Of a DNA stretch of 64,000 nt, positions 333-63,966 are shown in pieces; positions within the stretch are counted from its first letter, which is position 1; every line of letters starts with the position of its first letter. The translations under genes were made by a program, and so were the position numbers. Below the pieces are notes generated by a model, which worked only from the letters and a program-made list of their open reading frames with translations, made no database searches and was not told the origin of the DNA. The stretch comes from Channallabes apus (taxonomy: Eukaryota; Chordata; Actinopteri; Siluriformes; Clariidae), in assembly GCA_030522415.1 (NCBI GenBank), contig CM060127.1:1841114-1905113 (forward strand), in the 5' to 3' direction.

Positions 333-1518
333 ATGCCAACGTCACTGGTCCTGCGCCCTGACCCGGTCATGTTTTTATATGGCAACCCTGGTGTTCTGGA
401 CGACGCAGGCAAGAACATGGACGCGTTTTCCCGAGGCAATTTTGCACCGAGCTCGTGCAGAAATTTTCTAACCCCCAACGCTGCCCACACGTCGAGCGAC
501 GTAAGTACTACAGGATTTAGTGAGGTTGGAAAACAAGGCAACCCGTGTACAGCCTCGCAGGGATCTGGAGGCGCATCACTGCCTTATGGGTATTTTGGCA
601 GCAGTGGATATTATTCATGCCAGTTGTCTCATACCCACTGGACTGGCAGTGGGGTTAAATCGTCCACTCATTCTCCAGTCTCTGCTGCCTCACAATATGG
701 GGATAAATATACGGATATGTCAACAACGTCGACCGAAAACTATGTTGCTTCTCGAGCCAAGGAGTTCGCATTCTACCCGAGCTATAGTTCGAGTCCGTAC
801 CAGCCCGTTGCCGGCTATCTGGATGTACCTATAATACAGGGTGCAAACGGGCCATCAGAGTACAGAAATGAGTCTTCATTATTACCTGTTGAAAGTTGTC
901 AGCCGTGGGCGATCAGCGCTAGCAGCTGGAACGCACAAGTCTGCTGTGACAAGGAGCAACCACATACAGGATCAGTGTGGAAAGCATCTATATCAGGTAA
1001 AATAAACTTTGATCTAGCTTATGCACCCGAAAGGATTTTGTCGGACAAAAATATATATATTTGATTATATATATATTATTATTATTTTTTTTTAACAAAC
1101 GTAACTTTTACCCATGGTGGCCATAAACGTATTATGCCCATCCATAAAATAAACTAGTTTCAATAAGATGAAATAACATTAATGAAATAATATTCAATTT
1201 GAGTATTTAAACAAAAATAAATAAGATACTTGATAATGAATTTTAACAATTTCATATGGCATTTTTTCAGACTCAGTTCATCACAGAGGAGCAGACGCAA
1301 GTTCATTTCGGTGCTGCAGAAAAAAGCGCGCTCCATACACAAAGGTGCAACTGAAAGAACTCGAGCGCGAATATGCGGCTAACAAGTTCATAACCAAGGA
1401 CAAGCGTAGGCGGATATCCACACTGACCAGCCTATCTGAACGACAGGTGACCATTTGGTTCCAGAACCGGCGCGTAAAAGAGAAGAAAATTGTGAACAAA
1501 TTAAAATCTAACGGTTAA
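333..1518 (+). CDS. hoxa13a: Homeobox protein Hox-A13a (two exons: 333-996 and 1271-1518)
   Basis: This is an AbdB-class homeodomain transcription factor. In the family it patterns distal fin/limb, hindgut and urogenital regions in the nucleus. Exon 1 starts at ATG 333 and ends at 996 (donor GTAAAA). Exon 2 begins after TTTTTCAG at 1271 and stops at TAA 1516-1518. The split codon gives a 303-residue protein. The N-terminus has the HOXA13-like PVMFLY and KNMD motifs. The exon 1 core has [29 protein letters not shown] and [12 protein letters not shown], typical of Hox13. The homeodomain is at about 237-296 with recognition helix [13 protein letters not shown]; there is no hexapeptide, as expected for group 13. 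VMFLY...KNMD favours HOXA13 over HOXC13 or HOXD13. The homeodomain N-arm (CCRKKRAP) and helix 1-2 region differ from the usual Hox13 sequence. The reading frame is intact, so the gene is probably functional. Polyadenylation signals AATAAA lie at 1839 and 1863. Confidence 0.93.
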
Positions 1519-2560
1519 GACAACAGAAGGGAAAGTTGTATGTCGGCGAAACATTTTTTGTGAATTCTTTGTTTGTCAGAAAAAGGATTTGATGCCAGTA
1601 GGTGCTATGACACCGACACCGAATTATATTTTTCCTTAATAAGAATGTCAATAATGCCGTGTGTGAAAATATAATATTTATGCTCGCAGTCTCGTGTCTT
1701 GTGCTCAGCGATTAAATACAAGGAGAGCCCATTAAAATGTTTTCCCAACTTCATGTATAGTACTTGTTTATAAATTGTGTCGATCTAATAACAATTTATC
1801 CTGATCTATCTAGGATTGACTTATCTGCTTATGTGTCAAATAAAATTTTTCACGCCTGTCTCAATAAACCACTGATATGATTAACAAACAGAACGTTTTC
1901 TTTTGACGTCACCAAGTTCAAAGAATTGTGCCTTACATTTTCAGTAAATTTATTTCCGCCTTTGTAAGAGTCAGTCTAAGTCCGCCAGTTTGTGTTGTAT
2001 ATATTTCCAAGAAAAAAAGGATATATAATATATTGAAATTTATATTGGTAATCATAAATTATATATGCTTTGTCATTCTGTTCCGTGCAACATAATTTTG
2101 GATGGAATCGAGACAATATGTTCATTGCAAAGTCATTAGTAGACCAACATCGCCATCTACTGATGGTGAGTTTGTATCGGTTCAGTTTATTAACTGTGGA
2201 TACTTTCTTTACATTCTGATTTCTACTCAAAATATATTTCCATAAAAGCATAATAAAACGGATACAATGTAAATTCCAACAATTAGGTTTTTAGATTTGA
2301 TGCATTCGACATCTTCCACCACTTAAATGCAGTATGTCATGCAGTGAGCTCACACAGAATGTAAAAACATAGGTAGATATAAATAGATAGAGTACTTTAT
2401 GAATCCCAAAGGGAAATTGTAACGTTACAGCAGCCAGTTCACAGTTTATAAAACAACACACAAACAGTAATGTGTAGAAGAATAGTTTAAAATGCAAAAT
2501 CACATAATTTTTAAAATAACTTTGCTTGTCCTTTTCTATCATAGCATATATCACATCTTT

Positions 2561-2616
<56 letters not shown>

Positions 2617-2620
2617 CAGA
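1519..2620. other. hoxa13a 3' UTR and flank, ending in an (AT)n tract
   Basis: The AT-rich 3' flank holds two AATAAA signals (1839-1844 and 1863-1868). No conserved coding sequence was recognised in any frame between about 1900 and 2560. A pure (AT)n microsatellite occupies about 2565-2612 and abuts the Tc1 insertion. Confidence 0.6.
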
Positions 2621-2622
2621 TA

Positions 2623-3716
2623 CAGTGGCTTGCAAAAGTATTCGGCCCCCTTGAACTTTTCCACATTTTGTCACATGCATGAATGAATCAATTTTATTGG
2701 AATTCCACGTGAAAAACCAATACAAAGTGTGTACACGTGAGAAGTGGAACGAAAATTATACATGATTCCAATTTTTTTTTTTACAAATAAATAACTGCAA
2801 AGTGGGGTGTGCGTAATTATTCAGCCCCCTTTGGTCTGAGTGCAGTCAGTTGCCCATAGACATTGCCTGATGAGTGCTAATGACTAAATAGAGCGCACCT
2901 GTGTGTAATCTAATGTCAGTATAAATACAGCTGCTCTGTGACGGCCTCAGAGGTTGTCTAAGAGAATATTGGGAGCAACAACACCATGAAGTCCAAAGAA
3001 CACACCAGACAGGTCAGGGATAAAGTTACTGAGAAATTTAAGGCTTAGGCTACAAAAAGATTTCCAAAGCCTTGAACATCCCATGGAGCCACTGTTCAAG
3101 CGATCATTCAGAAATGGAAGGAGTATGGCACAACTGTAAACCTACCAAGACAAGGCCGTCCACCTAAACTCACAGGCCGAACAAGGAGAGCGCTGATCGG
3201 AAATGCAGCCAAGAGGCCCATGGTGACTCTGGACGAGCTGCAGAGATCTACAGCTCAGGTGGGGGAATCTGTCCTTAGGCTGGTCAGAGTTGATGGGAAG
3301 ATGGATGGAGCCAAATACAGGGCAATCTTGAAAGAAAACCGCTTGGAATCTGCAAAAGACTTGAGACTGAGGCGGAGGTTCACCTTCCAGCAGGACAACG
3401 ACCCTAAACATAAAGCCAGGGCAACAATGGAATGGTTTAAAACTAAACATATCCATGTGTTAGAATGGCCCAGTCAAAGTTCAGATCTAAATCCAATCAA
3501 GAATCTGTGGCAAGATCTGAAAACTGCTGTTCACAAACGCTGTCCATCTAATCTGACTGAGCTGGAGCTGTTTTGCAAAGAAGAATGGGCAAGGATTTCA
3601 GTCTCTAGATGTGCAAAGCTGGTAGAGACATTCCCTAAAAGACTGGCAGCTGTAATTGCAGCAAAAGGTGGTTCTACAAAGTATTGACTCAGGGGGCTGA
3701 ATAATTACACAAAAAT
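2623..3716 (+). mobile_element. Tc1/mariner-type DNA transposon, inactivated
   Basis: The left end CAGTGGCTTGCAAAAGTATT follows a TA dinucleotide (2621-2622), the Tc1 target site. A transposase remnant is readable from about 2985 to 3687. It has QQDNDPKHKA (the second catalytic Asp region) and SSDLNPIKNLWQDLK, ending GGSTKY. In Tc1 transposases the last motif is normally NPIENLW; here the catalytic Glu is Lys. The segment that should hold the first catalytic Asp is deleted, since the text jumps from GESVLRL to VDGKMDGAKY. A right-end-like GGGGGCTGAATAATTACAC stretch is at 3694-3712, but the element then runs straight into a second Tc1 element. It is inactive. Confidence 0.85.
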
Positions 3717-4268
3717 TTCCACCTCCATGCTTGACTGTAGGGACTGTGATGTTCTTAGTGTCATAAGCAGCATTCTGATGACAAAGAGCCCAATTTTGGT
3801 CTCATCTGACCACAGCAGTTTATCCCAATCTTTCTCTGTTCATTGGCAAACCTCAGACGGGTCTGTATATGTGTCTTCTTGAGGAGGGGAAACCTGCTGC
3901 GCTGAAGGATTTCAATTCATGCAGCCGTTTTGTGTTACCAATGGTTTGTTTGGTGACTGTGCTCCCAACTGCCTTGAGATCATTCACAAGCTCCTCCCGT
4001 GTAGTCCTGCTGGTCCCTCATTTTTCTCATGATTATTCTTACTCCTTGAGGTGAAATCTTGCATATAGGGCCATAAATGGTTTGTATTTCTTCCATTTGT
4101 AAATAATCACTCCAGCAGTTGTCTCCTTCTCACCAAGCCATGCTGATGGTCTTGAAGCCCCTTCCAGCCTTTTGCAGGTCTAAAATCTTGTTCCTGACTT
4201 GCTTTGACAACTCTTTGGTCTTGCCAATGTTGGTGAGGTTTGAATGGAAGATTTTGTGGACAGGTGGC

Positions 4269-4301
<33 letters not shown>

Positions 4302-4588
4302 CCACATTGTTGTTAGGAGCACCTTCTTAAATTAATGTGTACCACAAGACCACATAACCAGTCTGTGAGAGGCAAAATTATTGTTGGTTGGAAGAGGATC
4401 AAATACTTATTTCCCTTCTTTGAAATGAAACTTAATTCATAACATAACATCCATGTGCTTTTTCTGGATTTTTGGTTGATATTCTGTCATAAACCTATGC
4501 TAAAAATTATAGACCCTTCATTTCTTTGTAAGTGGGCAAACTTAGAAAATCTGTAAGGGATCAAATACTGTACTTATTTCCCCCACTG
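3717..4588 (-). mobile_element. Second Tc1-like element, opposite orientation, degenerate
   Basis: The terminal sequence at the right end is the inverse of CAGTGGGGGAAATAAGTA. It finishes at 4588 and is followed by TA (4589-4590). The interior on the minus strand is recognisable as Tc1 transposase coding sequence broken by stops, for example the region complementary to 3720-4260. A poly-T tract at about 4268-4294 interrupts it. Its inner end abuts the preceding Tc1 element at about 3716 without a visible target duplication. This suggests insertion plus deletion, or a recombination joint. Confidence 0.72.
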
Positions 4589-4639
4589 TATATTCCTTGC
4601 GATTGCCCAGTTCTGTACTGTACAAGTGATAATAGTATT

Positions 4640-5487
4640 CAGTACCGCCGCTCCCTATACGCAGAGTACGCAATTTGCGTAGGGCACCAACTCCCAGGGG
4701 GGCACCATCCCAGCTGCTCAAGAAAAATCTTTTTTATATATTATAATAATAAATTAATATTAATAATATATACATATATAAATAAAAAAATATATAAACG
4801 TATACAGTATATTGCATTTTACGGTCAAAAATTATAGTAATTGAACAATATGCCTGGTCCTGGAAAGAGACATCAACAGTGCATCACTTTCAGGTATGTT
4901 CATAAACCCGTGAAACTTAATTTAAAAAAATTACCCAAATCTTTGGATTGCTCTGCGCATAGCAGTGACGCTCCCTGTAACTGTTGCCTCTGCTGAGCGA
5001 AGTTTTTCTAAAATGAACCTCATCAAAATGTACTTGCGCTCATCTACGGCACAAGAGCGCATGAGTGGTCTGGCAATAATCAGCATCAACTCTGAATTAT
5101 CAAAGGCTTTATCGTATGAAGAGCTCATTTACGACTTTGCCTCAGGAAAAAGCACAGAAGTGTGCCTTTGTAAATTTTTAACTTTGGAAAGCTCCAGCAG
5201 ATGACAGAGTTGATTTTATTTCAGTTTATTATTGTTTATTTTATTAATTATGAATGTTTTATTTAAAGTGTAATTTTAGTTTGTATTTTTTGCTGTAGAG
5301 CTACAATTGTAATTTATAAATGATAAAAGTAAATACATAAATAAATTGTATTTGAATAAAGTTCTATTTTGACCCTAGGTGTTTTTTTTATTTATTATTA
5401 TTTTATTTTTACTGCCGTAATATTTGGGGGAGGGGCCACAAAAGTACATTTCTGCTAAGGGCACCGATTTGGCAAGCAGCGGCCCTG
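4640..5487 (+). mobile_element. hAT DNA transposon, internally deleted, 8-bp TSD ATAGTATT
   Basis: The element is bracketed by perfect 8-bp direct repeats ATAGTATT (4632-4639 and 5488-5495), the hallmark of hAT transposition. Its ends form imperfect terminal inverted repeats (CAGTACCGCCGCTC versus CAGGGCCGCTGCTT). Inside, at 4968-5150, a reading frame gives VTVASAERSFSKMNLIK, the C-terminal dimerisation motif of hAT transposases. Most of the transposase, including the catalytic core, is gone. It is a decayed, deletion-derived copy. Confidence 0.85.
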
Positions 5488-5495
5488 ATAGTATT

Positions 5496-5940
5496 TCCCT
5501 TTACACTCCTTAATCAAAATTCTTGCTCCCCTGTCTGTTTAGGCTAGAAACTTAGCGTAGTTTCAGCTCAAGACGCTAGTCGCCGCCACTGAGCAGCAGT
5601 CTTTATAAATCAGCGGTGTATGCAAACACATTATGGCACGTTATTAATGATGGAATATACTGTAGGCCTGTTTAATGATTTTATTTTATTTCATATCAGA
5701 ACTAATAAAATGACTTTTATTAGCCAATTTCATGTGACTAATGCATTAAAATTGGCAATCACTTTTAATATTGAAAAGGTGGCAAACAATGTGGCAGCGA
5801 TACAGCGTGTTGAAAGCGGTAAAGTTAGTTTAATATTCAGACATTCGACAAACATTCGGAAGGGGTATTTTAGGGACCGTTGACTAATTTCTGTCCAAAT
5901 GAAAAGTGAAAGTACTTGTTACTTACCTGGCTACGTGCCA
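5496..5940. other. Unassigned intergenic sequence
   Basis: Nothing recognisable as gene or repeat was seen. An 87-codon open frame at 5620-5883 has AT-driven composition and no family resemblance. Confidence 0.4.
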
Positions 5941-6530
5941 CAGTTATTCTAATTTATTATTAAACATACAAATGCCATGCATACTACTTTTGTTCATTAT
6001 TAATTGTTGAGTTAATAGATGATATTAATTGTGTATTGTGAATTGATTTGCAAATATTATATATATTTTATTAAATCACTATTTCTTCAATAGCTTTTTG
6101 GTCGTGTGACCATGTGACCCCAAATTAGTACCAAAATAATCTCATTGAAGCCCCACACAAGGTACACCAGGTTTTATGCCATGATGTCTTCATTTATTTA
6201 ATTTTTTTATTTTAAAAAAACGCCTTTTCTTCAATAGCTTCTAGGTCATGTGATCTGGTGACGCCACATTGGTACCAAAATAATCAGACCTGAGACCCCC
6301 AAAAGGTACACCTGCTTGTTATTAACCATACATATGCCATGAGACGTTGCATACTAATAATATAATTAATTGAGTAATATTAATTGAGTACTGTGAATTA
6401 ATTTGCAAATATTATTATTTTTTTATTAATTCACAATTTCTTCAATAGCTTTTCGGTCGTGTGACAATGTGACCCCAAACTGGTACCAGTTTGATTTTAT
6501 CCCATGATGTGTCTTATTTAATATTTATTT
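5941..6530. repeat. Diverged tandem repeat, unit motif TTCTTCAATAGCTT
   Basis: Three copies of a block beginning TTCTTCAATAGCTT and continuing with a GGTC.TGTGA..TGTGACCCCA-like stretch start near 6083, 6227 and 6437. The first and third also share about 120 bp upstream (ATGCCATG...GATTTGCAAATATTAT), so the larger unit is about 360 bp. The family is unidentified. Confidence 0.65.
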
Positions 6531-6745
6531 AATTTTTTATAAAAACAAAAAATACTTTCAAAGTTCCTATGGAAGTTACTATAGCAGGGAATGCAACTCT
6601 GAGCACTTCCTGTTTCAATGAGGAGTACATTCATAAAATGTCAAGGGGGCAAATTTGGATACCTCTTGCGTCCCAGGGGTACTTATACACTGTAAAAAAT
6701 CTTATGTGCCATCTACTTTAAAAAATATGGTAACAATATTGCGCA

Positions 6746-6936
6746 TATTATTTTTAAGCAGTTTTTATGGCTTGATTTTTTTTAAAGAATTTACTTGAAT
6801 AAATCATGTAAAAAATCCTAAATTATTTAGCCAGACGGATATTATTTTTAAGTAGTATTTACAGCTTGATTTTTCCCCCAGCAGAATCTACTTGAATGAA
6901 TCATGTAAAACATCCTAAACTATTTAGCCAGACACA
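6746..6936. repeat. Tandem duplication, about 94-bp unit
   Basis: 6746-6838 and 6840-6934 are diverged copies sharing ATTATTTTTAAG, GCTTGATTTTT, TACTTGAAT.AATCATGTAAAA and ATTTAGCCAGAC. The origin is unknown. Confidence 0.65.
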
Positions 6937-8740
6937 TGATTTTAACATTATTAGTGGAATAATCTTTTTTAGTTTAAGCAGATAAAACAAAATGTACTCA
7001 TATTATGCAAAATTACTTAATATTAAAAAAAAATTATAATGAAATGAATACATAATGCATTTTGGTGTTAAATATGCTTTTATTTCATGTTTCACTGGTA
7101 TCAAAATATTAAACACTTTGTAAAATAGTGTATATAACATTTACAGCAGTTTCAAGATCTGTAAAACTATTTGTAAAACAGTCTGTAACGGACAATTTTT
7201 GTGTCACTGAAATCAACTGTTTAGCATTATATGCTAACATCTTTTTTGTGGGAATAGTCACATTCTGTACTAAAACGTGAGAGAACTTGTACAGTAAACC
7301 ATTTAGGTTCATATCTTCGTAACATTGTAAAACACTAACTCCCCAAAACTTGTTTTAGTGAACTGTGGAGACTGACACTACAACAAACTCAAGTATGCTA
7401 ATGGCAGACAGGATGTTTTCAAAAATGTTCACTTTTTCATTTATATTGCTGACACTAGTGCAAGAAAGGAGCTTATTTAAGAAATCAAAATAAAATGTAA
7501 GCATAAGAGGCTTAACTTACCTCTTAACATTTTACACTGTTCGTCTGTTCCTTCAAAATGGCGTCTGATCACAGTGACTGTTGAGATTCAAATGAAGGTG
7601 ACTCAATTAAACCCGGATAATTGGACAAATTCTCTTAAAATAAATATGAATCCTTTTTTCCCTCAAAATTTTAGCCTATAAATGGTTGCTCAAATTAATC
7701 CTAAAAATTGCACTCCTTTCCTTAAAAAAACAGGTACATTTTATTTCTTAATTTTATTAGTGAAATGTTCTCAATATATTATAACAAACACAGAAAACTT
7801 TTAAAAATGAAATATACATATTATTTTTAATGATTACATCAATTTTTTTTAATGAAAATGACAAGACTCTGATTCATTTTTTGTGAATAAATGTACTAGT
7901 GTACCATTTGCGGGGTATGTGATGACACAGACTCAAAGTTGGTGTCAATGTTAAATTTGTGGGATTTTTGGACCCCTTAGAAAAGTAATAGTACCCCAAT
8001 TCCCGAATAAGCCGAGGTTTGATACCTATTTCATGGGTCTACGACAAACTGTAGGGACTAGTTTGTATGGAATAATAAATAAATAATAAATTCGCAAGCA
8101 CCACTAATAATAATAAAAAGAAGATGAATAAGAATAATAAGAAAGTGCATACTCATACACATACGCATGTTATTTTCTATTATTTATTCCGAGGAAAATT
8201 GCAAAATGCATATGTTATGCTGTAGATGGCAGGCCGTACATGAATCATTTTATAGAACACTATGGAAAATTATTTTATGCATTAAACAATCATTATGGTA
8301 GGCCATATACACAGGCGTGTGTGGTCGCATTTACATTACCACTTTGTTGAGGGCCTGAGCATATTTAGAACCTCAAGGCCTTTATTTCTTTATTTCTGGG
8401 CTGTGTAATAATATATTAAAAAGTCTATAAACTATATGCACCCAGCATCAACTATCCTTGTGCAGAAATCCAGAAAGACACATCCCTCGCAGTATGGTGG
8501 GAAAGTATTTCCGTTTAGACTGCATTAATATCGTTGTGGCTATGATTTGCTTGTAACCTGCATAGAAATACTCTCTGATAGGGGTGGTCTGAAGAGGCAT
8601 CGTCAGCTCAGGATGATCAGGATATAGGTCACCCTTTATGACTTGTTTCTTGCGCCCCCCAATGACCAAGTTAGAAAGTGCATGTAAAATTGCTGTTTAA
8701 AATCTGTTGAGGTAAAGAAAAAAAAGAAGAAAAAATAGAT
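6937..8740. other. AT-rich intergenic DNA, no gene recognised
   Basis: The sequence is low-complexity and AT-rich with scattered stops in all frames. A 73-codon minus-strand frame at 8448-8669 has no recognised family. No Hox exon, splice-bounded coding block or RNA gene was found here, although hoxa11a and hoxa10a would be expected in this interval in other teleosts. Confidence 0.5.
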
Positions 8741-9180
8741 TATTCATACTAAGGATTCCCCCAATTAAAGATGGCCTCAAGATTTAATTTGAATGATCTG
8801 AAGAATTAGGAGGTAGTTTTCCTTCATCATGATTCTAGCCACTTACAATGCACCAGTTCCAGGCAGCACAACAGACCCAAAACAAACCCAAATGTGTGAT
8901 GTGTAACAGATGTTACAGTGTCCACGGGATGCCTCATCTTTACTCCTGGTTTGAGCTTGTAAGTGTGAATTTTGGAGCAGGGGCTTCTTTCTTGGACTCT
9001 TAGTCTATGGTGATGTAAATGGCTTGACTGTAGACAGTGACATTGGTCACAGCAAATTCCAAGTTCATGGTAGGCTGGTGCTTTGATCCCTACCAATTTC
9101 CTCCCAGGTGAGGGGGACAGTTTGGGTCTTCTTTCAGACCTTGGGGCAAAGTGACCCCACCTCTCAATAATTTATACTTA
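8741..9180 (-). mobile_element. Degenerate Tc1-like relic
   Basis: Read on the minus strand, the block reads like a mutated Tc1 transposase middle segment. It has a stretch resembling GCTGC..GGAACTGGTGCA followed by ATCATGATGAAGGAAAACTA, matching the pattern around the Tc1 'GTGAL...IMRKENY' segment. Frameshifts and stops break it. Ends were not identified. The assignment rests on remembered similarity to fish Tc1 elements. Confidence 0.5.
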
Positions 9181-11190
9181 CATACAGTGATTTGAACTGA
9201 TATTGGAATCGTTCTCAGATCTGCACTGAACACCTTGAACCTTCTCACTGTACTGTGTGTTATCAATCCAATGAGCGCTGATAAACAAACCTTTTTTTTT
9301 TTTTACTTTGCCACAGACAAGCTACCAGCTGGAGTTCATCACTAACAGAAAGTTGAGAGGCCTCAGGCTTGGCTAATTAAAGACATTTCAGGACATTAAG
9401 CATACACTACTGGCACTAAAAAACAAATGTAATTACTACATTCTCAGTAGAAGCTGAGTCCCACTAAAGTTTTTGATCAAAACTGTCAACAGTAACCACC
9501 ACAGTTATATTTTCGGGAAAAAGTGTTTTTCCTTTTTGACAGTATTTAAATTTTTTTGTGTGTCAACGAACTGAACAAAGGCCAATGATCACATTCTCAG
9601 CTATATACATTTTTTTTCGTAGCGTGCAAAGCTAAGGTTGGGAAGTATGTTTAAGCTCTATACTCAAGTAAAGGTTGCAGCAAATATCTCCTCAGTTATG
9701 TCCAATTAGTGCTTAAAAGGGCTGTTTGTAGTGTAAGAGTTTAAATGGAGTTTAACAGAGTTGTATAATTACAGAGATTATGTTGGGGAAAATAAGCACT
9801 GATTTTATATTGGAAAATTCAATGTTAATTCAGCCGTATCCATTTTGTGTTGTTGGATAATGTTGTGCGGACTTTTATTAACGAATGGGGAAGAACGGAA
9901 AGGGGGGGGGGGGGATAAATTAATAAAAAAAGGAGTTGTTGGCGTTAAGAAGAGCTCGTCCGTGTCTGAGGGTTTTATTTTATTAATCTTATAACTTCTT
10001 CAGCCTTAAAGCCCCGAAAGCACCCACAAGCAAGTATTATAGTAGCAAACAAACAAATGAAAAATAAAAAAAGGTAAAGGGATGGCACAAGCATCCATTT
10101 TTCCCTCCTTTTTTCTTTTCTTTTAGCTGCTTTATTTCCTGTCGTAAACGAGAACAGCCGCGGTCTACAATGTGTTTGTCCACTTGCCTTTTGTGATTCG
10201 GCACAGCTGAACGACATTTTAGTCACGGGTATAGTCAACAAGTTATAACGATTCGTAGTGGACGAGCACATGGTGAAGGCAAGGTACTGGGAGAGAAACT
10301 TTGAAAACATTAATACATAAAGTATTTGCTAGGAATAAACGTAAAATAATTTATAGCATGAGAATGTTTTGGACACATTTTAACTTCCTAAAAACTATTT
10401 CTTAAATAAATATAATTTTTTTTTAAAGTAGATACTAGATATATTACAGATTATATATCTAGATATACTAGCTTTATTACAGACATAAATAATCTGTATT
10501 CATTATACATCAATTCATAATCTAGATTAATTATTTTCTATATTTATTTATTTCTATTATTTTCCTATATACATTTTTTCTTTTAAAGATTTCAGCTTAC
10601 AGCTAATAAATAATTATAAAAAAAATCCTGTATCTCAAAATGTAAGAATGTCTATTTTCAAATTTGAGTAATTTACTATTTATACAGTATTGTATATCAA
10701 GACAATATGTACAGCTCTGTTGTACTTACAGTTTTTCTGTATACTGTAAAGGTTTATTTACAAAACCTCCATTACATGACTGCCATTTTGTAAGCAAACA
10801 TTAAATCCTCTCTTTTACAATGAATTTGGCTTAGAACAACTGGTTCTATGCATGCAATTGTATTTTAAATTCTTTCCTTTGAAATAGTTTTTGTGCTATA
10901 TCTTTGGTCCTTGGTATTCATTTCCCTTGTGTTTGCATTCCTATCTTGTATCTGCATCCTATGTATGGACACTTATTAAAACATAGACAGGCATGCAATA
11001 AGTAAATGGATACCCATACTTTTATAATATAATGTATACACAATTTTTTCTTTCTTTTCGGGAATAGAACCTTCTTTAAAGTCTATATTTTGGTCAGTCT
11101 GAAAGTGGAAGGAAGGTAAGCAAAAATGATACGATAAAAGCTAAACCTGATTTGTTAAAAAAAATTAATAACTTTGGTACATATTTTATT
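9181..11190. other. Intergenic DNA with homopolymer tracts, no gene recognised
   Basis: It contains a G run at about 9901-9914 and long AT-rich stretches (10,380-10,740). A 111-codon minus-strand frame at 9975-10310 has lysine/arginine-rich and hydrophobic patches but no recognisable family. It is treated as chance. Confidence 0.45.
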
Positions 11191-11199
11191 ATATAGTTG

Positions 11200-11432
11200 T
11201 GGGTGGTTACTTAATTTTGCGTCCATGTGGGTGTGTTTATACAACTGATTTACCGACGTGTTCCTCCAGATCACGTGCGCACGAAATCCAATCAAAGGAC
11301 AACCTACAGTCAACATATTACCCGACAAAGGGTGGCTGCGCTTCTTGGCTATATTTTATTCCGCTTATAGCGGATAGTCTCTCTTGGATCTGTTGTTTTG
11401 TGTGAATATAAAGGCAAGTGTACCTGTCCGCC
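11200..11432 (+). promoter_or_regulatory. Vestigial promoter/5' region of the hoxa9a pseudogene
   Basis: This block is moderately GC-rich and non-repetitive, lying in AT-rich surroundings directly upstream of the hoxa9a relic. It includes an E-box TCACGTG (11271-11277), a CCAAT (11290-11294) and a TATA-like AATATAAAGG (11405-11414). Assignment as old promoter rests on position. Confidence 0.4.
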
Positions 11433-11912
11433 ATGTCGACATCAGAAACCCTTGTAAGGACACGATTCGTTCATTGCACCGAAAAGTGGAGAGTACCATT
11501 TTCTTTATGTTCGGGGCTGCTTCAACAACCAAGGCCGTGATTTTTTTTTCCGGACGAGCGTCATGGCATCACATGCCGCATATTCCCTTCGCGGAGCCGC
11601 GGGCCGTTCATCACTCATACGCATAGTGAAGACCCCAAACTGGAGTTTAGGTATGAATTATATTGATGCATGTCGCACGGAGACAGATACTCTTTTCATT
11701 CGTTCTGGTGAAGGAGGCAAGAACGAAGGAAAAAGAAAAACCGATCCCGGTAAGATCAAAAGTCTGGTTAATACGAATTGTGAATAATTGGTGTACAGCT
11801 TCAATTTGATGGCTGTCAGTCCTGTTTTGAAAACTTAAGTATATCACCGAGTCTGATGCATTTTTCTTATTCTTGCAGACAACCCCGTGTCTATCTGTCT
11901 TCGTGCAAAATA
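11433..11912 (+). pseudogene. hoxa9a pseudogene (exon 1 relic 11433-11749, exon 2 relic 11879-11912)
   Basis: The relic starts ATGTCGACATCAGAAACC, giving MSTSETL like the Hox9 start MSTSG.L. After a small deletion, a shifted frame reads DSFIAPKSGE, matching the Hox9 YYVDSFIGHES segment. The exon 1 tail has a degraded acidic stretch ending AAACCGATCCCG and then GTAAG at 11750. That is exactly where Hox9 exon 1 ends with the DPN motif. A short intron ends TTCTTGCAG at 11878. Exon 2 begins ACAACCCCG.. and continues to TCTTCGTGCAAAAT, a mutated form of the Hox9 N-PAANWLHAR start. It is lost into AT-rich DNA at about 11912, before the homeobox. Several frameshifts and stops are present. Position between groups 13 and 4 supports hoxa9a. 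It cannot encode a homeodomain. Confidence 0.82.
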
Positions 11913-13522
11913 AATAATGAATGTATAAACAAATAAATTATATTAAATTAAATATAATTTCATTTCATTCAACTTCACTTAAATAATAAATAAATAACTA
12001 AGCATGCACAAGATTCTCGAACTGGATTAAACCGATTAAAAGTTTCTTTTTTGTTTTGTTTTTTAATGCATGATTTTGTCTCTAGATACATTGTTAAATT
12101 AATTTAAACCTGGTTTATCTATATGAGAATTTTCACATTTTCAGAGTCGGTGGGAATCATTTCGCCTATTTACTTCCTAAAAATTCTCGATTTGTTGTCT
12201 CAGTGCTAACATCGGACGCTTGGTAAAAAAAAAATTTAACACCACCGTAGTGTGGTGAAATTAATACCTTATGATCGTCATACTGGCTGAAGACTGTGTT
12301 GCTCACTTATTTAAATTGTAATGTGTACTCTTTTTTTTTTATTGGAAATTAAACATTTAAAATATAATATATAAAATATTAACTATAACAGACAATGTCT
12401 CCATACTACTACTACTTCTACTTCTAATAATAATTACAGTTCCCTCTGAGCTAGCAGCATTACCGCCATAAATGTTATTGGTAAAAGCCACAGGCAGACA
12501 TGGAATACAAGAGAAATGTAAATGTTAGATCCAAGAGGTTTTGGCCTGCAGATTCTACAGAAGTACAATATATAACGTAATGCTATGTACTTGTACTTAG
12601 TTACGTGTCCCACTACGTAATTTTATACTCTTAACCAATACTGTATGTGTACTACAATAATATTTGTAATAATTGGAAGTCTTTTATGGAAGTCGCAGAT
12701 ATACGCATTCAATGGTCTCATAAGGGAAACTATTAACTGCATTCCGACTTTATGGCAGTCGAGAACAATAACAGAGTTTTCAGGGCCGCAGGCCAGTTCA
12801 GACTGTGCTACTCTCATTCAGTCTCGGGTTCCCTCTCCATTCAGCTGTGCGATGTGCACAAAGGCACCGGATATAATTTAGTTTTATTGGCTAAGACTGA
12901 CTCCATGGCGTAAAACGTTAATTACTACTAGAGGGAGCCATATCAACACGTATAGGAGAAAGTGTATTTGGTTATGTAATTGATTATAATGAGACAACAA
13001 TCACTAAGACACTTCATGTTCCTGCCTGCAACACCATCCGTCGCAGTTATGAGATGCTGCTTATAGATTTTTGGCGGGCTAAGACGACATTAAATTCAGA
13101 CAAACAAAAGTCAAGTCAAAAGACAAGTACACGCTACAGTCTATATAGGGATTTTTTTTTACAACAAACTCGTAACAAAGAGCTGAAAGTCGACAAGATT
13201 TGAGCAAACTTGAACAAACCACCAATCTTTAATAAAAGAAGATTATGTAAGTGCACAGTACAGATAAATGGCCTACAAAAAAAGTTAAACAATACATTTT
13301 GCTTATTAAACCTAACATCTCTAATACTAACAGTTTACTTAGCCTCATTAGTAAATAAATTCAAATATGTCGTAAGTATTTAAATTGAATTGCGCCAATT
13401 TAAACACAAAAAAAATCACAGTTGTATCTATTTGTACTTCTAATTTTCGACATGTTGCCAATGGTTAGCTAACCAAGTGGATATTGCGAATGAACGATCA
13501 GCAACTTTTACTCGAGCCATAG

Positions 13523-13553
<31 letters not shown>

Positions 13554-13725
13554 GATATTAAATCTAGACAAAGCAGGGTTTTAATCTGTGTTCTTTAACA
13601 CATTTACTGTTATGTTTAAAATGAACTTTAAATATTACATAATTAAACAATCCGATTAAAATTTAAAATAGCTATTAACGAATATTCATATCCTGATTAT
13701 TATTATTAGTAGGAGTAGTATTGCT

Positions 13726-26220: not shown

Positions 26221-26224
26221 AAGG

Positions 26225-50603: not shown

Positions 50604-53600
50604 ATGCACAACGCAACCTACTGCGACGGTTTGCCTATTTACAGTAGCTGCTCCAGTCAGCGTGCAAATGGATTGGGTTACGATGACAATCAGCAGAACT
50701 GTTTTTCGGTCCTTCATTTGGAAAGTGACGACCAACGACCGGCCTGTTCATTGCAGTCCTTCAAAAGCTCAGCGACGCTTCACAAACTTGAAGCCTGCTC
50801 GCAGAACAAAGGAACACAACATACACTAGAAGACAACGATCGTCTGTCCCCTAATAACGTAGCCCACAATTCAGGCAGTGGGCAAAATGTAAACAATGCA
50901 GGCCACGGTTCCCCACCATCAGCCACCAGCAAGCAAATATTCCCTTGGATGAAAGAGTCACGTCAGAACATCAAGCAGCAAAAATCCAATAGGCGTATCA
51001 CAAGTTCAGGTGATTATAGTCTGTGAATACGTATTCACATGCACCTGTAAATTTAAATGCCCCAAATATGTTTAGCAGAGACGAAAAATATACCACCAGG
51101 GTCAGAGTGTAGAGTCACATTGTTACATAGAACATTGGCAGGAATTTAGGCTAGCATGGTGTAGCTGCCTACCGTTTTTAACGCTGAACTAATGCCTGAT
51201 TTTTCATACTCTTGAATTCTCCGTCAAATCAAACAAGAATGCTTGGCATTTTTATTTCAAACATTTTCCATCCACGTCCTTACCTCCATATAATTTTATG
51301 CAGTGCGTGTGCTGAATTAACACTTAATATACGGTATGTGCACTGTTTGTTATTAAAGAGAGACTGTCGTGTGTAGAAAAAATGTGCAGTATCCATCTCT
51401 TGTTATACTTTTGCAGATTCCGTCAGTTAATAACCCTATTTGTGCGTGATGCTGCTTTTGAACTGTTGTTACAGTCCAACCATTTTTATTTATACCATCC
51501 CGTTCTTACAACGCCTAAAACACTGTAGCATGAAGAGAAACATTTACCATCACTGCACACTCCCTTCGGATCACTGTTTTAATGTTAGGTGATTGCATAT
51601 GCTTCGTGTTACTGACGCAAATAGCAAACGTATTCACTGGCTTTGTGCCTGAGCTTTGTGCTTTAAATGTCCGAAGATGTCAGCTTTCTTTAGTGCAACA
51701 CTATCTGTAAAGTGTCACAATATTTGATTCATATTTGTCAATAGGCAACTGTTAATTACATCTACGTGGATGTCCCTACATTTAATATAATTTTGGAATC
51801 GTGTCATGTAGGGTAAATAAAATATTGGGGGAATCTTCTGGGTTCACAACAGCCTCAACTAAATTATATTCTATAGCATTCCTTTCTTGTTAGTTGTCAA
51901 TTTAATTTCATGATTTGGTATTTCTAAATAATAATATTTTTTAATCCTAAATAAAAATTTGCCCTGAAATTGTGGTACAGTAACAACAGTAAACAATAGC
52001 TAGTGCTGGGAGCTGCAAACAATCCGTCTGTTATTTACATAAGTAAATTTAGTTCAGGGCACTATCGGTCATTTTGACTGAAATGTTTGATCATCAATTT
52101 GTTGGCAACAAATTATTTTATCTTATTACTAATAAATAATAAGCCCAAAATCAGAAAAAAAATTGTACACTGACAATAATCTAGATATATACTAGCTATA
52201 CCCAAAACCTAGGTGAGTGTTTACATCAGCCAAGATAAAGGAAAAATATGATTAAGACGTCCAAAACAAATATCAAACTGTTTGTGAAAAATCTGATTAA
52301 AACATTATATAGAGTAGAGCTAACTCTAAAGAGCATCCCTTATAAAATAATAGTAAACATGTTTTTCATTATTACTAATGAATGATTCGTTCATGTTTTT
52401 GTAATAGACATTTGACGCACAATGATCAACCATAAAGCCAATGAATTAGTTTTTTTTAATTTTTTTTTTATAAAATGTATGGGCTTTCCCCTATAGGATG
52501 ACCAGGCACACAGAATAGTGATGCCAAAAATGTTCATTGGCATAAATGAAGGGCTAAAGGCTTCTCACCATGTTATGATATTTGTGCTGGAAATGAGAAG
52601 GGATTGGGTTATAAATTGTTGGGATGTACGGTCCCCTTTAAAAGTATTGGAATGACAAGGCCTTTAAATTTGAATTGCAGTTTTCATAACCTGGCATTTA
52701 TATGTAGACGCGTTTAACAGCTTGGACATAGCACCATTGTTCAGACTAATCAATTTTAGCATGAGCAAAAGTATAGAAACAGAACATTTAAATCATTTAA
52801 AAGTAAAATAAGTAATCCTTGTTTTGGGGTTTCCCATTTATTTTCCTCTTCAGTAAATAAAAAGGTACTCGTTTGGGTTAACCTCTGGTGATTGACATGA
52901 ACAAAACCTTTTATTTGTTTTTCTCAAAAATGAAAAAAAAAAAAAGATAAAATCTTTTGCTGTGTTGGAAATGGGTTTTCAGGCATTGTTTTGCCGCATG
53001 ATGACCCACAAGCTTGTATGTTTTGTACCATAATTTCTTTTTCCACATTTTGGCCTTTTCAACACTTTGGTAGGGGTTAATCTTGGGTCGAGAAGCCCCA
53101 GTGGGACTATCGCCACCTGTCTTGTAGAACCCCAGCCACAGGGGTGCACAAGACAGTGCACTCTTAGCATTGATCCCAAGCTTCGATAAAATGTGGGAGG
53201 CTGCATAAGTAAAGCTATCCAGTGAAAATCTGTACCAAATATTTATAATGGATGATCCCCTGTGGTGACCAAATGAGAGAAAGATCTAGCTTAGCCAGCA
53301 TGCCTCATTTCTGCAATTTCATTCAAATTCCAATCTGGTTTTCATTTTTTATTTTTTTTACTGTGAGCAGTTGGCATCTTATGGTATGGACATCTTTGCT
53401 CTCATACTATTTTCTGGCTTCAAAATGCTCTCTGGGTGTCATGCTGATTTATAATTTTAACAACAAATGCAGTCCTCATAGCTAAAACCCAGGGTACCAA
53501 CTAAGATTACATATAGCTATCATTTGTTGAAATAGTAATTTTAACAGTTATATAAGTTTTTTCAGTCACACAAAAACATGGGTGGGTTGAAACGAAAGGT

Positions 53601-54749
53601 TTCTTTTTCTAAGTTGGTTAAGATGTTTTGGTGTAAATATCAGGATTTGAACGCTGAAAAAAGAATCTATTGTCTCACATTCTGCTTTATCAGGCCAATC
53701 TAATCAAATATCTTTCATGTATAACAAAAACAAGTTTGGCCTTGGTGTTCTAGTATTTTCAGAGGTGAGGTAAACTTATTAGCAGCTAATGGCTTTAAAG
53801 TGATTAGGTACACACATAATGTCTTTATTCCACTAGGGGCACTTCATTGCATTTGTGGAAAGGCTCTATAAGTCAATGTAGGTTTATATATGTTTAGAGT
53901 TCATTTAATGAGAGCATTTGTACTAATATTACATAAGAATTGCTGACTGTACTGATTGGTCTTCTTTTGTGTTCAGACAGCTGTTCAGATGACAAAAGCC
54001 CAACCAACTCTTACACCTCTAAGCGTGCACGCACTGCTTACACCAGCGTACAGCTTGTCGAGCTTGAGAAAGAATTTCATTTTAATCGCTACCTTTGTCG
54101 CCCACGGCGGTTGGAGATGGCAAATCTGCTCAATTTGTCTGAGCGGCAAATAAAGATCTGGTTTCAGAACCGCAGAATGAAGTACAAGAAAGATCAGAAA
54201 GGACAGTCTTTGAGTAGTCCTGTTGTGCCAACTTCAGGATCTGTGGCCATGGGAGAGGACTCTGTAAGCTCATTAGATTTCATGGTAAACCGCATGAGGT
54301 GCAACACTTTGTCCCCAACAGTATATACCAATGCTCAGAGAAACCCCTACAGCCTGTCTGGATCATATGCACAAGTCTTTACCAGAACGTTTAACAACGG
54401 CTCATCTTCTCAAAAGACATACCTGGGGACCAGTTCAGCCATGACTGAGTCTGACATGCATAATTTCCAAGGTAACACTCAATTCTGTGTGCAAACACAG
54501 GGCAGTAGTGTGCATGTAGATGCTAATGGAACCTATGCAGATAGCATTAGCAGCAGTGGGAGTTCAATTTATGACCTGCCACAACTCCCTCAAGCTGTTC
54601 ATGGCAATAGAGACTATAACAGAGCCATCATCATAGGGAACAGCCATCATGATGGAACACTTGAACCGTCTCAGTGCGCATACTCAGACTTTACACCACA
54701 CTTCTCTCAGGGAAGAATTTACGAAGCACCTAAGCTGACACATCTATAA
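50604..54749 (+). CDS. hoxa3a: Homeobox protein Hox-A3a (two exons: 50604-51009 and 53977-54749)
   Basis: This is a Hox group 3 homeodomain transcription factor, nuclear. In the family it acts in hindbrain rhombomeres 5-6 and third/fourth pharyngeal arch derivatives. ATG 50604 is chosen because MHNATYCD matches the Hox3 start (M.NATYYD). Exon 1 has the conserved RPACSLQS and the hexapeptide [11 protein letters not shown] (about residues 112-122). It ends at 51009 (donor GTGATT). A 2.97-kb intron follows. Exon 2 starts after TTGTGTTCAG at 53977. The homeodomain (about 150-209) contains [20 protein letters not shown] and [14 protein letters not shown]. The protein is about 392 residues and ends APKLTHL, the Hox3 C-terminal motif. 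All frames are intact. Confidence 0.95.
51010..53976 (+). other. hoxa3a: hoxa3a intron
   Basis: This intron is AT-rich, with no transposon recognised apart from short homopolymers (for example 52927-52944). Hox3 introns often carry regulatory elements; none can be named here. Confidence 0.6.
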
Positions 54750-57700: not shown

Positions 57701-59112
57701 CAGTTTCAACATGTTACAACGTATTACAGTGTTACAATATACATACATACATACATACATACATAGGACAACAGAACGGTTTTTAAATTTATATTTTAAA
57801 TACAAGTAGACTGTTACCATATTTTAGGTTGGGTTTCTTTGTGCTTAACATTATTTTGCTTACTTTTTATGCAATTTCCACTGATCATTTTCTTGTGTAC
57901 TAAAGAGCAGCTTGAAACCCTGATACCGTAAAACGTACTTTATATAAGAAAGATTTGATTACTTTTTTAAGCGCAATAACTGAGTTGATGGATCTTGAAT
58001 AAGGTTCATGAAAGCAAGAGATCCACAATCACTAGTCTCCTACAACTAACCCTCGCAATTTAAGACTCACTAGTCTCTTAATGTAATTGCTATTCGCCAA
58101 ATAATTCTTCAAAATGTTTAAAACAAAGAATTATGTAAAGAAATTGCATTAATAAGAAAATCCAGATTGTACCTAACATTAACTCGAATAAATCAGTTGA
58201 ATTTGGCTACTCACCCCTTACTGCACTTGTACTACATATCATTTAATCCAAAAGAGATTGTGAGTGTGAAACAAAATAAAACGCTAGAGAACATCTGTAG
58301 TGGCTTCCTGGTCTGTTTCTGGTTGTATTGGATCTTGCGCAGAGTTAAAGAGATGAAATATGTTGTGGGGGAGCGATGTTGTCAGACCTTTTGGTGAGTA
58401 AGATTGATCACACGCAGGTTTCCATGCCTCTTTGTTTAGTGTATAAGCACTAAAACTGCAAGCGGTCAGGCACGGCCTTTCAATTCACGTTTTAAATATG
58501 CCACACACGCAGGATGTTTAAAAGTGGTCCTTACTGTGTAATTCCTATGCAATATTGCACTTTGTTATTGAATCATATAACGCTACTTACTGTATAATTC
58601 TGTAGATACAATACATCCTTAATACTGATTTTTTCAAAGTTCACATAACGTTGTTTGTGTTATCTATAGTAAAAGAACAAATTAAGTGGACCACAAAAAA
58701 AGACACACTCACATTTTTGTTAAAATTACGTTGCGCCTGTATGTAGTAATTAAGTGCAGTTAGATATAAAATATATGGATAGATATTAGTTTTAATTTGC
58801 CTTTTAATGCAAGCTGTCATTATTGAAGGTGATTTTGCCCGCTGTTCACAGGCAATACGATGGTAAATGGTATATAAAGGAATGTAGTTACATTTTATGT
58901 TATAAGGCACAATCGTTTTACTATTGTCGCTATTAATGATGTTCTTTTAGCTATACCATTGTAACGGAAATAATGCATCGTTGTGTTCGACAAGCTACAC
59001 TGCCTCGCTTAACTGCAAAACACAACATCGCTCAAATTGCTGAAGATGTTATGGCGGTGTAAAGCATCCTCCAGCCAGAGAATCCCACCGTACGACGGCA
59101 TGAAAAGAAGAC
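54750..59112. other. hoxa3a 3' UTR and hoxa3a-hoxa2a intergenic DNA
   Basis: It contains (ATT)n at 56331-56370, (GA)n at 57647-57698 and (CATA)n at about 57743-57765. A non-repetitive block at 57,540-57,615 and another at 58,280-58,400 could be relics of Hox2 hindbrain control elements. Open frames such as 55803-56180 are not recognisable proteins. Confidence 0.45.
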
Positions 59113-60316
59113 ATACATTACGAGTTTGATCGTAAAACAAGTTGCATCAAGAGTCAGTCTTTGCTATAAGCGTGTCTGACGTTTTTTCTTCATCATTTAA
59201 GGGCTTTACGCGTTCACAAGCGCTTATCCCGACTTTCTTCGTGCACATATTTCCTAGCTCGAGCGCGGGGACCAGCAGCGTCATGGCCGCCGGAACAGCC
59301 AGAAATGCAAGAAAAAGGCCTTCAAGAACTAACGGCTAACGTACACACAGCGAACACGAATGACGGTTCCCGACAATGCGGCGAGCCCATGTGACGGTTT
59401 CCGACAATAGACAGTCTAAGACTTGTGAATTTATGCGACAATTCCCGTAAATTCGAAACGACTGAAAACCATTCAAGCCAGTTAAAAATAATTTAGTATC
59501 TTATTATTATTATTATTATTATTATTATTTAACAATGATTGCTTTACGCTTATTGTGTGTATCCTGGACGCATTTTAATATTTAATTATGAAAAATGGCG
59601 AACTGTTCTGTCTTGGGTTGCTCATGCATTCAGTGATCAATACTTCCTACGCTTTGTAGGCAATATGGGCTGCAATGTTACATATTATAATAACTTAATT
59701 AGCACTTAATCTCTTATGTTCCTAATCTTGTTTCAGCGAAATTTTACCAACTGCACCGCATCGACCTGTGTGTCCATGGTCTAGTGTATAATTAAGCTTC
59801 GTATGTATATTAAAAATAATGTAATCTATGAGATAAACACCTCCTGTCTATCTATGCTTGCGATGGATTTAAATATGCTACGGTGGACACACTGCCTGTG
59901 ATCGAGGCTCTCCCAGTGGTACTGACCTTTCTCAATGCCACGTTGATTTGTGGTTTCAGAACCGTCTTACGGAGCCGAAACGGCAGCCTCGTACAATCTA
60001 AGGAAGCCAAGAAAACCGGTGAAAGATAGTTCCGTCTATCAATCCAAACTTAAATAGGTCTATCCTACAATGAGTGTGATACTCTCAATTCACATTACGC
60101 CATCATAAACTTCCCCGTTGGCTCGCAACAACTGTCAGAACTGTGCTGTTACCTCTAGGACAAGAATCTTAGTAGCATCCCCAAAGCCAAATATTCAGTT
60201 GTCCACTGTCGGTGGATTGGCTTTTGCGAGACTTAACATTTTAACGGATTCGTCCTTGCTTTTAAAAACCCGCTTTGGTGCTGTCAGGCTCTCAGCAGCA
60301 GGAGCACCTATCCAGT
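59113..60316 (+). pseudogene. hoxa2a pseudogene (exon 1 relic 59113-59335; exon 2 relic about 59741-60316)
   Basis: The start codon position reads ATA. After it TACGAGTTTGATCGTAAAAC gives YEFDRKT, then a stretch ending CIKSQSLL, then a stop (TAA), then ACLTFF. This parallels the Hox2 start (NYEFERE.GFINSQPSLAECLTSF). Further on, a serine-rich SIKSSTLSHSALIP-like stretch is frameshifted. CCGCCGGAA...ATG.AAGAAAAAGGC at about 59288-59323 is the decayed PPEYPWMKEKKA hexapeptide region. In exon 2, CTGACC at about 59920, then TTGTGGTTTCAGAACCG and AAACGGCAG (59952-59988) are homeobox helix 3 (VWFQNRR...KRQ). CAGAACTGTGCTG (60135) fits the Hox2 C-terminal QNC motif. Multiple stops and frameshifts rule out a protein. 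Confidence 0.88.
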
Positions 60317-62773: not shown

Positions 62774-62813
<40 letters not shown>

Positions 62814-62934
62814 GGACAAAAATGGCGACTTAATAACCGTCGGACACAATACAATGAACTGCACTCAGAAGAATTTCTTCTAATCAGTAATTCAGTTAGA
62901 CTATCCGATAATTGAAAACGATGCAGTTAATTAT
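61791..62934. other. Intergenic DNA with a (CT)n tract
   Basis: (CT)n lies at about 62771-62812. No gene was recognised; the frames around it are AT- or repeat-driven. Confidence 0.5.
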
Positions 62935-62939
62935 TTGCA

Positions 62940-63356
62940 TGTCGTCTTACCTGACATTGGCATAGTTCACTATAGTTCCAATATATATGGGCACCGGTCC
63001 TGGCTTCCACTTATCCGCGCAGTACATGATCTCTACCTTCTACCACAATTGTTTCTTCAGTCAGTGAGTAGGAGCCAGTGGGAGTGCTTACGTCATTATG
63101 ATCGACTTAAGGTCGGAATTAGCAAAGCTGTAGCCTTTAACGACTACCTGTCAGCGCGACGCGCGTGGGGCTCAACACCCGGCAAAGGCAACTGGCTGAC
63201 CCGGTTCACGTGACTGTCACTGCTCATTCATATCACTTGTGCGCCGCCTCCCGCGTAACTCCGCTGATTGAAGCCGGCGGAAGGCTGGCGGGTGGACCGT
63301 GGTTGTGGCTATATACAGTTTGAGCGTGACAGTAGGAGAGACGCTGCAATGCCAGA
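62940..63356 (+). promoter_or_regulatory. hoxa1a: hoxa1a promoter region
   Basis: This non-repetitive, GC-rising block ends at the hoxa1a ATG. TTCACGTGACTGTCACTG (63206-63223) joins an E-box and a MEIS/PREP-type CTGTCA, and TGATTGAAG (63265-63273) is PBX-like. A TATA-like CTATATACA is at 63309-63317. It is consistent with Hox group 1 promoters, which use PBX/MEIS input. Function is inferred. Confidence 0.5.
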
Positions 63357-63966
63357 ATGAATACATTCTTAGACTACTCAGTGATGAGCGGTGGCGACGG
63401 GAGTGGCGGGGGTTCGTGTTCTGTCAGTGCATTCCATGCAGATCACGGAACATTCCAGTCGTGTTCCGTCACGGTAAATAACTGCAACGGGAGCGAGCGG
63501 TTCTTGACCAGCAGCGCGTCACCGGACTCTGTTTCAAATCATTCACATAAAGCCGGTACACTGTCAATCGCCTATGGTGGCCATCCAACTTACGGGGCTC
63601 AAACTTTTTGTACCAGTTATAATCACTACACCGTCAACCAGGATTCTGACTCCACTGCAGGTTTAAGTCAGTGCGGTCCGCTAGTTTACTCTGGAAATAC
63701 TGTCGAGTCCCATCATCGTCATCATCATTTTCGACACGGTTACTCAGGCAGTAGCGTTCGCTTACCTGGGCAACTCCAGTTTGCAGCTGCTGCGTATGGT
63801 CACGGTCAGGATCAGGCTAATTTGACGTTGTTGGCAAGTTGTTCAAACCCTCTCTCTTCTCTGCACGCGTCACATTACAACCCGTGCTGTTCATCTCTAT
63901 CTGATGGTGTGTCAACGACGCAGACGTTTGACTGGATGAAAGTTAAGCGGAATCCACCAAAAACAG
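63357..63966 (+). CDS. hoxa1a: Homeobox protein Hox-A1a, exon 1 (gene continues beyond the window)
   Basis: This is a Labial-class homeodomain factor that in the family patterns rhombomeres 4-5 and responds to retinoic acid. ATG 63357 opens MNTFLDYSVMSGGDG, matching the Hox1 start (M.TFLD.). The Hox1 motifs FQSC.V.VNNC, GPLVYSGN, a short His-rich run (HHRHHH, about residues 119-124) and the hexapeptide TFDWMKVKRNPPKT (about 190-203) follow. The donor is ACAG followed by GTGACT at 63967, phase 1 as in other Hox1 genes. The exon encodes 203 codons plus one base. The homeodomain exon lies outside the window. GPLVYSGN, the start and the HoxAa context favour HOXA1; a group 1 gene of another cluster is unlikely given hoxa3a and hoxa4a next door. 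Confidence 0.93.

Follow-up and report, generated by a model that had tools for sequence, protein, structure and literature searches.

The HoxAa cluster of zebrafish reportedly retains hoxa13a, hoxa4a, hoxa3a and hoxa1a together with hoxa5a, hoxa9a and hoxa11a. According to the text of a study on striped catfish, hoxa2a, hoxa7a and hoxa10a are inferred to have been lost before the catfish-zebrafish split, and hoxa5a and hoxa11a in the catfish line (PMC6173838). That text, its figure aside, does not list hoxa9a among the losses in striped catfish (PMC6173838). Zebrafish is without hoxa2a, which acanthopterygians retain (PMC5831782). In medaka the 89-bp core of the hoxa2a rhombomere 4 (r4)/cranial-neural-crest enhancer drives a reporter on its own in r4/hindbrain and in cranial neural crest/arches (52/62 embryos, Table 2 of PMC5831782). 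Here we describe the HoxAa cluster of the catfish Channallabes apus in a 64,000-nucleotide stretch of DNA (GCA_030522415.1, contig CM060127.1, positions 1,841,114 to 1,905,113 of the forward strand), hereafter the window. It contains a dead hoxa2a gene and, upstream of it, a match to the medaka enhancer core.

We consider it likely that this cluster is late in a process of stepwise loss, in which redundancy drove the loss of coding genes, regulatory DNA was kept for living neighbours, and debris accumulated elsewhere. Groups 13, 4, 3, the relic of 2, and 1 were placed in collinear order on a single strand using tblastn, frame joining and relic alignment. A tblastn search of the window for homeodomains identified three that are complete and one fragment (E 0.001); matches elsewhere had E values of 0.17 to 0.94. 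The exons of hoxa13a, hoxa4a and hoxa3a join as open frames with consensus splice ends. These frames, along with Pfam and tblastn matches, confirm an earlier claim that these three genes and hoxa1a exon 1 are intact, made in a preliminary description of this DNA. Coordinates of all features are given in Table 1.

The preliminary description also placed a decayed hoxa2a between hoxa3a and hoxa1a. Both exons of the pseudogene are recognizable there with the frame broken, and the relic is strong. It was identified using a frameshift-tolerant alignment of the human HOXA2 protein against the hoxa3a-hoxa1a interval, with dinucleotide shuffles as the control. Exon 1 scored 86 while 60 shuffles had a mean of 37.7 and a best score of 48; helix 3 of the exon 2 homeodomain scored 58 and the best of 60 shuffles 53. 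Thus 0/60 shuffles equaled either exon. In exon 1, 29/59 aligned residues are identical, a figure that leans high with an optimised alignment. The 21-residue exon 2 relic has no indels, whereas the exon 1 relics of both hoxa2a and hoxa9a carry several. Thus in at least one catfish a relic of a gene said to be gone from striped catfish can still be read.

The match to the medaka hoxa2a core is gapless and covers 71/89 positions. No other place in the window exceeded 41 identical positions, and the maximum over 100 shuffles was 46. The core of medaka psi-hoxa2b matched the same window at only 43/88 positions, which supports assignment of the element to the 'a' type. The medaka core used in these searches was rebuilt from four tiling primers, and a one-base overlap set at one junction gave the published 89 bp. 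The element starts 3.6 kb after the hoxa3a stop codon and 755 bp before the first codon of the relic, and ends 667 bp before the dead gene; the medaka cores lie at -1392 ('a') and -803 ('b') (PMC5831782). A putative Hox/Pbx site, AGATTGATC, is present at 58401-58409. The medaka sites compared are AGATTGATCG for Hox/Pbx and CTGTCA for Prep/Meis. Both are in register with the element, where the Hox/Pbx site reads AGATTGATCA, a form present in the active medaka psi-hoxa2b core (PMC5831782). A combined pattern of the Hox/Pbx site and CTGTCA had 0 matches in the window, the pattern having used the medaka form where the site here is TTGTCA. It seems that the enhancer survived the death of its gene, and the predicted element may serve hoxa3a or hoxa1a.

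Selective constraint on the element is plausible. We propose tentatively, with somewhat less than even confidence, that the enhancer was kept by selection long after hoxa2a died, having been taken over by hoxa3a or hoxa1a or having always been shared with them. Several observations weigh against this proposal or against the wider account. The Prep/Meis site has TTGTCA in place of CTGTCA, a single change. None of six additional primers from the medaka enhancer flanks, three from hoxa2a and three from psi-hoxa2b, gave a match above chance. With a recent death of hoxa2a and drift at 0.20 changes per site, 18/89 differences are expected (P 0.58). The hoxa2a relic, supposedly the older, is no more decayed than the hoxa9a relic, the minimum change in the two being 0.17 to 0.21 per base, so that the loss of hoxa2a may not be much older than that of hoxa9a. 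Finally, redundancy would be supplied largely by HoxAb, which lies beyond the window.

Alternatively, the element may lag neutrally behind its gene. The core would then be a relic like the exons, hoxa2a having died recently and independently of zebrafish, and the element would now be unselected. We regard this as possible though rather doubtful. Similar decay of the two relics and loss of the probed flanks are consistent with it, as is the overall divergence, since 18 or fewer differences in 89 bases have a P of 0.58 to 0.18 under free drift at 0.20 to 0.25 changes per site. However, the stretch from the Prep/Meis site to the Hox/Pbx site, spanning both binding sites, differs from medaka at only 2/31 bases, for which the same rates give a P of 0.037 to 0.008, the stretch having been chosen post hoc. 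The 18 differences include change on the medaka side. The 89 bp contain no indel, in contrast to the two exon 1 relics though like the exon 2 relic, and the published inference dates the loss of hoxa2a to before the catfish-zebrafish split (PMC6173838). Either hoxa2a died later in this lineage than the published tree has it, or its exon 1 is itself under constraint.

The interval between hoxa13a and hoxa4a was previously described as rich in transposable elements (TEs), with few insertions between hoxa4a and hoxa1a, and the difference was attributed to relaxed constraint. The Pfam scan covered 55/55 chosen posterior open reading frames (ORFs) and 15/20 anterior ORFs; ten were picked by eye, the rest were stop-to-stop frames of at least 82 codons, and low-complexity frames were excluded. 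TE domains exceeded the Pfam cut-offs in four posterior ORFs, each of them within the hoxa13a-hoxa4a gap. The 15 anterior ORFs scanned had no domain above cut-off. Three matches under the cut-offs, one of them posterior and two anterior, seem to be due to chance. A uniform spread would place all four TE ORFs in the gap with a frequency of 14.5%. The fraction of sequence in self-repeats is 11.6% for the gap, 3.8% for the hoxa4a-hoxa3a interval and 0% for both the hoxa3a intron and the hoxa3a-hoxa1a interval, bearing in mind that a longer interval favours self-repeats. The gap has no higher density of tandem arrays, with 25 rows in 36.7 kb (0.68 per kb) versus 19 in the 22.8 kb of the anterior part (0.83 per kb). 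One dispersed repeat, 82-94% alike in pieces, has copies on both sides of hoxa4a, at 23734-24658 and 46048-46449, so insertions are found in the anterior part too. Anterior repeat copies occur at 41.9 and 46.0-46.4 kb. The contrast between the gap and the anterior part is suggestive but not significant. The placement of the TE ORFs agrees with the earlier description, the tandem arrays do not, and relaxed constraint as the cause is not established when a uniform spread gives the same placement in 14.5% of cases.

The stretch that begins with hoxa13a and ends with hoxa1a exon 1 measures 63.6 kb, a minimum cluster length with hoxa1a exon 2 outside the window. Published lengths are 58.2 kb for zebrafish hoxaa, 66.6 kb for Tetraodon hoxaa and 55.2 kb for Pantodon hoxax (PMC4166920). 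The cluster is of ordinary length for a teleost HoxAa, without expansion, so the gap was refilled rather than expanded. It is unlikely that the central block was lost through, or along with, an invasion of transposons, constraint against insertions being relaxed there and nowhere else. The four TE ORFs and the graded cover of self-repeats are what such an invasion would leave. Against it stand the uniform-spread frequency for zero of four anterior ORFs, the repeat copies and equally dense tandem arrays of the anterior part, and the ordinary cluster length; the data carry no evidence on timing.

Two further repeats were observed in the gap. A Tc1-like fragment with DDE_3 (2623-3687) lies 1.1 kb after hoxa13a; one of its ends is presumably a Tc1 terminal repeat, and no second end was found within 5 mismatches. 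Two tandem copies of ∼0.9 kb, with 90% similarity across 903 alignment columns, are present at 17894-19701 near the ORF with the integrase domain.

A decayed hoxa9a in its expected place, as the preliminary description had it, was recovered as exon 1 only. The exon 1 of Chanos Hox-A9a scored 69 against 11433-11745. Shuffle maxima were 63 (0/60 equal) and 64 (0/240 equal; Gumbel P 0.001). A profile built from nine ostariophysan Hox-A9a sequences still ranked 11433 first, with a score equaled by 3/150 shuffles using the first 90 columns and 4/150 using exon 1 (Gumbel P 0.014 to 0.031). Fifteen Hox9 proteins were scored at 11433. Chanos A9a was highest at 64; the others were four A9a (38 to 50, Scleropages being lowest), three A9b (34 to 51), two unduplicated A9 (36 and 44), and five C9/D9 proteins (32 to 39). 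By sequence the relic is A9-like, with 'a' not cleanly preferred over 'b'. It opens with MSTS, as do other Hox9 proteins.

A spaced motif, TCACGTGN{4,24}CCAAT, has 5 matches in the window where 0.05 were expected. Four are found before hoxa13a, hoxa4a and hoxa3a and upstream of the hoxa9a relic, and the fifth within the Tc1-like element at 2.7 kb. The hoxa9a relic gains independent support from this Hox promoter motif, which starts 162 bp upstream of its ATG compared with 153 bp at hoxa13a. A palindromic TCACGTGA at 47072-47079, 3.5 kb before hoxa3a exon 1, resembles the motif and is possibly a distal hoxa3a promoter.

That the feature at 11433 is a chance match, and hoxa9a without trace, we consider improbable. 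The homeodomain exon was not found in the window (best score 47, equaled by 18/60 shuffles; 32/150 with the profile), and translations of the presumed hoxa9a 5' untranslated region from three contigs (P0309, P0291, P0305) had their best places elsewhere, without a signal of their own. The profile probabilities are modest, some A9a queries score low, and one A9b query reaches 51. A chance match is at odds, however, with the typical Hox9 start, a Chanos score that none of 240 shuffles reached, the gap between Chanos A9a and the C9 and D9 queries, and the promoter motif at a distance much like that of hoxa13a. We judge the hoxa9a relic to be real and of moderate strength, weaker than the hoxa2a relic.

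Human proteins used as queries gave no convincing trace of hoxa5a, hoxa7a, hoxa10a (exon 2 only) or hoxa11a in the window. Scores for hoxa10a exon 2, hoxa11a, hoxa7a exon 1 and hoxa5a exon 1 were equaled by 3 to 51 of 60 shuffles. One candidate relic of hoxa5a or hoxa7a, a homeodomain-like stretch at 35968-36074, 2 kb before hoxa4a, scored 55 and was equaled by 1/60 (A5) and 0/60 (A7) shuffles. It is interrupted by two frameshifts and a gap of eight residues and lacks a notable exon 1 at 35.0-36.4 kb, and we felt it safer to leave it unclaimed. mir-196 sits in a HoxAa footprint common to every fish compared in the text of PMC2080641. In the window it had 0 matches at 3 or fewer mismatches and none at the Rfam gathering score, and was not among three weak Rfam matches. 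Rfam matches to SCARNA7 at 32824-32992 and 14136-14288 are far under the gathering score, overlap CA repeats and are probably due to chance.

Where hoxa5a should be, 9.4 kb before hoxa4a, TCACGTG is followed by CATTAAAGTTGGTTTATGG (28745-28775). The pair arises in 9/100 shuffles and is a lead only. It resembles the paired CDX sites of the HOXA-AS3/HOXB-AS3 long non-coding RNA promoters just 3' of HOX5 (PMC8330917). A search for the motif in prokaryote contigs, a collection uninformative for a fish, gave 0 matches. Downstream, at 28891-28942, an ATG frame (MNFEYADWICLAANRG) runs into a donor-like GTGAGT site and could be the first exon of a sense transcript.

Most of the gene loss in this cluster is old and published, not new. 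The window is reduced to groups 13, 4, 3 and 1 as first described, although the claim that this lineage lost the central and posterior block except hoxa13a needs to be moved back in time for most of the genes. The cluster differs from a published catfish HoxAa by hoxa9a, whose loss seems to be specific to this lineage. No report of hoxa9a loss in a catfish was found in a limited literature search judged partly by titles. No named catfish Hox-A9a was present in the best 120 of 3,681 or the best 120 of 7,835 protein matches, which decides nothing. If there is no copy elsewhere in the genome, hoxa9a is one more Hox gene that can be lost in a catfish.

Cluster identity was examined further using hoxa3a. 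Over its full length the joined protein is 70% identical to a Hox-A3-like protein of Pangasianodon, 70% to Tachysurus, 67% to Silurus and 59% to Bagarius. The remaining named ostariophysans among the matches listed are 46 to 55% identical, including the catfish Trichomycterus (55%). In a tree of 19 rows the window joins Pangasianodon, Silurus, Bagarius, Tachysurus and two further contigs with 100/100 support. This group of 7 rows, in which the order is not settled, corresponds to the non-loricarioid catfish (Siluroidei); Trichomycterus falls outside it. Named teleost matches listed for the window hoxa3a are mostly Hox-A3a or Hox-A3. The 'a' versus 'b' identity was judged on hoxa3a and the enhancer core only, rather than on hoxa13a, hoxa4a or hoxa1a.

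An assembly artefact, either a false hoxa13a-hoxa4a junction or collapse of a gene-bearing haplotype, is highly improbable given that genes and relics follow one another as expected along a single strand, the hoxa9a relic and its motif falling between hoxa13a and hoxa4a, that the sparse gene set matches the published catfish losses, and that the length is normal.

Table 1. Features of the Channallabes apus HoxAa window (positions counted from the first nucleotide of the window).
Feature	Position	Strand	State or evidence
TCACGTG...CCAAT motif, hoxa13a promoter	180..201	+	motif search
hoxa13a exon 1	333..996	+	intact; Pfam HoxA13_N 90.9 bits, cut-off 27
hoxa13a exon 2, homeodomain	1271..1518	+	intact; best tblastn match group 13, 87.5% identity; Pfam homeodomain
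hoxa13a-hoxa4a interval, 36,686 bp	1519..38204	.	Tc1-, hAT-, Ty3/gypsy- and LINE-like fragments
DDE_3	3220-3687		Pfam above cut-off
Dimer_Tnp_hAT	4926-5201		Pfam above cut-off
TCACGTG...CCAAT motif, upstream of hoxa9a relic (ATG 11433)	11271..11292	+	motif search
hoxa9a relic, exon 1 start (MSTSETLV...)	11433..11745	+	frameshifts, deletions; exon 1 only
Integrase_H2C2	16706-16999		Pfam above cut-off
RVT_1 with ALKBH8_N	20480-21289		Pfam above cut-off
TCACGTG...CCAAT motif, hoxa4a promoter	38079..38099	-	motif search
hoxa4a exon 1	38205..38607	+	intact; YPWMKK hexapeptide region
hoxa4a exon 2, homeodomain	39092..39415	+	intact; 95.5% to group A4 homeodomain; Pfam
TCACGTG...CCAAT motif, hoxa3a promoter	50504..50526	-	motif search
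hoxa3a exon 1	50604..51009	+	intact
hoxa3a exon 2	53977..54749	+	intact; Pfam homeodomain, C-terminal DUF4074
hoxa2a r4/cranial-neural-crest enhancer core match (RE3-RE2), 89 bp	58358..58446	+	71/89 vs medaka hoxa2a core
hoxa2a relic exon 1	59113..59324	+	start codon lost, one in-frame stop, frameshifts; score 86
hoxa2a relic exon 2, homeodomain helix 3	59924..59986	+	score 58; tblastn E 0.001, best to A2
hoxa1a exon 1	63357..63966	+	intact, open frame of 203 codons up to splice donor; exon 2 beyond window

In the account that we favour, stepwise gene loss would have followed the teleost genome duplication and left this cluster at a late stage. Coding genes would have been dispensable where paralogues, above all those of HoxAb, covered their roles, and regulatory DNA shared with living neighbours would have been retained. 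The hoxa2a core would now most likely act on hoxa3a or hoxa1a in the hindbrain or neural crest. The hoxa13a-hoxa4a block, without a living gene, would have accumulated transposon debris, with the cluster staying at its ordinary length; the causal direction between gene loss and TE load is inferred.

Whether shared enhancers keep Hox clusters together is an old argument that is hard to test. If this account is true, otophysans without hoxa2a are a natural experiment in which shared enhancers, not coding genes, decide where a cluster withstands decay; its anterior end, with the enhancer, would stay clean while the emptied block of groups 5 to 11 collects debris. With a dead gene and an enhancer-core match between two living genes, the question can be reduced to a reporter assay and a deletion.

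Zebrafish is said to differ from the window by keeping hoxa5a, hoxa9a and hoxa11a. Its HoxAa cluster has lost hoxa2a, hoxa7a and hoxa10a as here, and the text of PMC6173838 lists the hoxa5a and hoxa11a losses only for the catfish line. A long repeat-bearing stretch after group 13 is also known from Astatotilapia burtoni, in the 63-kb hoxb13a-hoxb9a interval (PMC2080641). That interval differs in belonging to HoxBa and in reflecting a size increase, and the account of it in that text mentions no Hox relics (PMC2080641). The medaka psi-hoxa2b with its enhancer UER(K20-RE5) is likewise a hox2 pseudogene with a surviving upstream enhancer, and shares the AGATTGATCA Hox/Pbx site (PMC5831782). It is a HoxAb copy that is transcribed and has an assayed, working enhancer (PMC5831782), whereas the Channallabes gene is a far more decayed HoxAa copy whose element was recognized from sequence alone. 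Another close system is the HoxAa cluster of Pangasianodon hypophthalmus, which is likewise without hoxa2a, hoxa5a, hoxa7a, hoxa10a and hoxa11a (PMC6173838). In the text on that species hoxa9a is not listed as lost and hoxa2a is called disappeared (PMC6173838), whereas the window holds a hoxa9a relic and a hoxa2a relic that can still be read.

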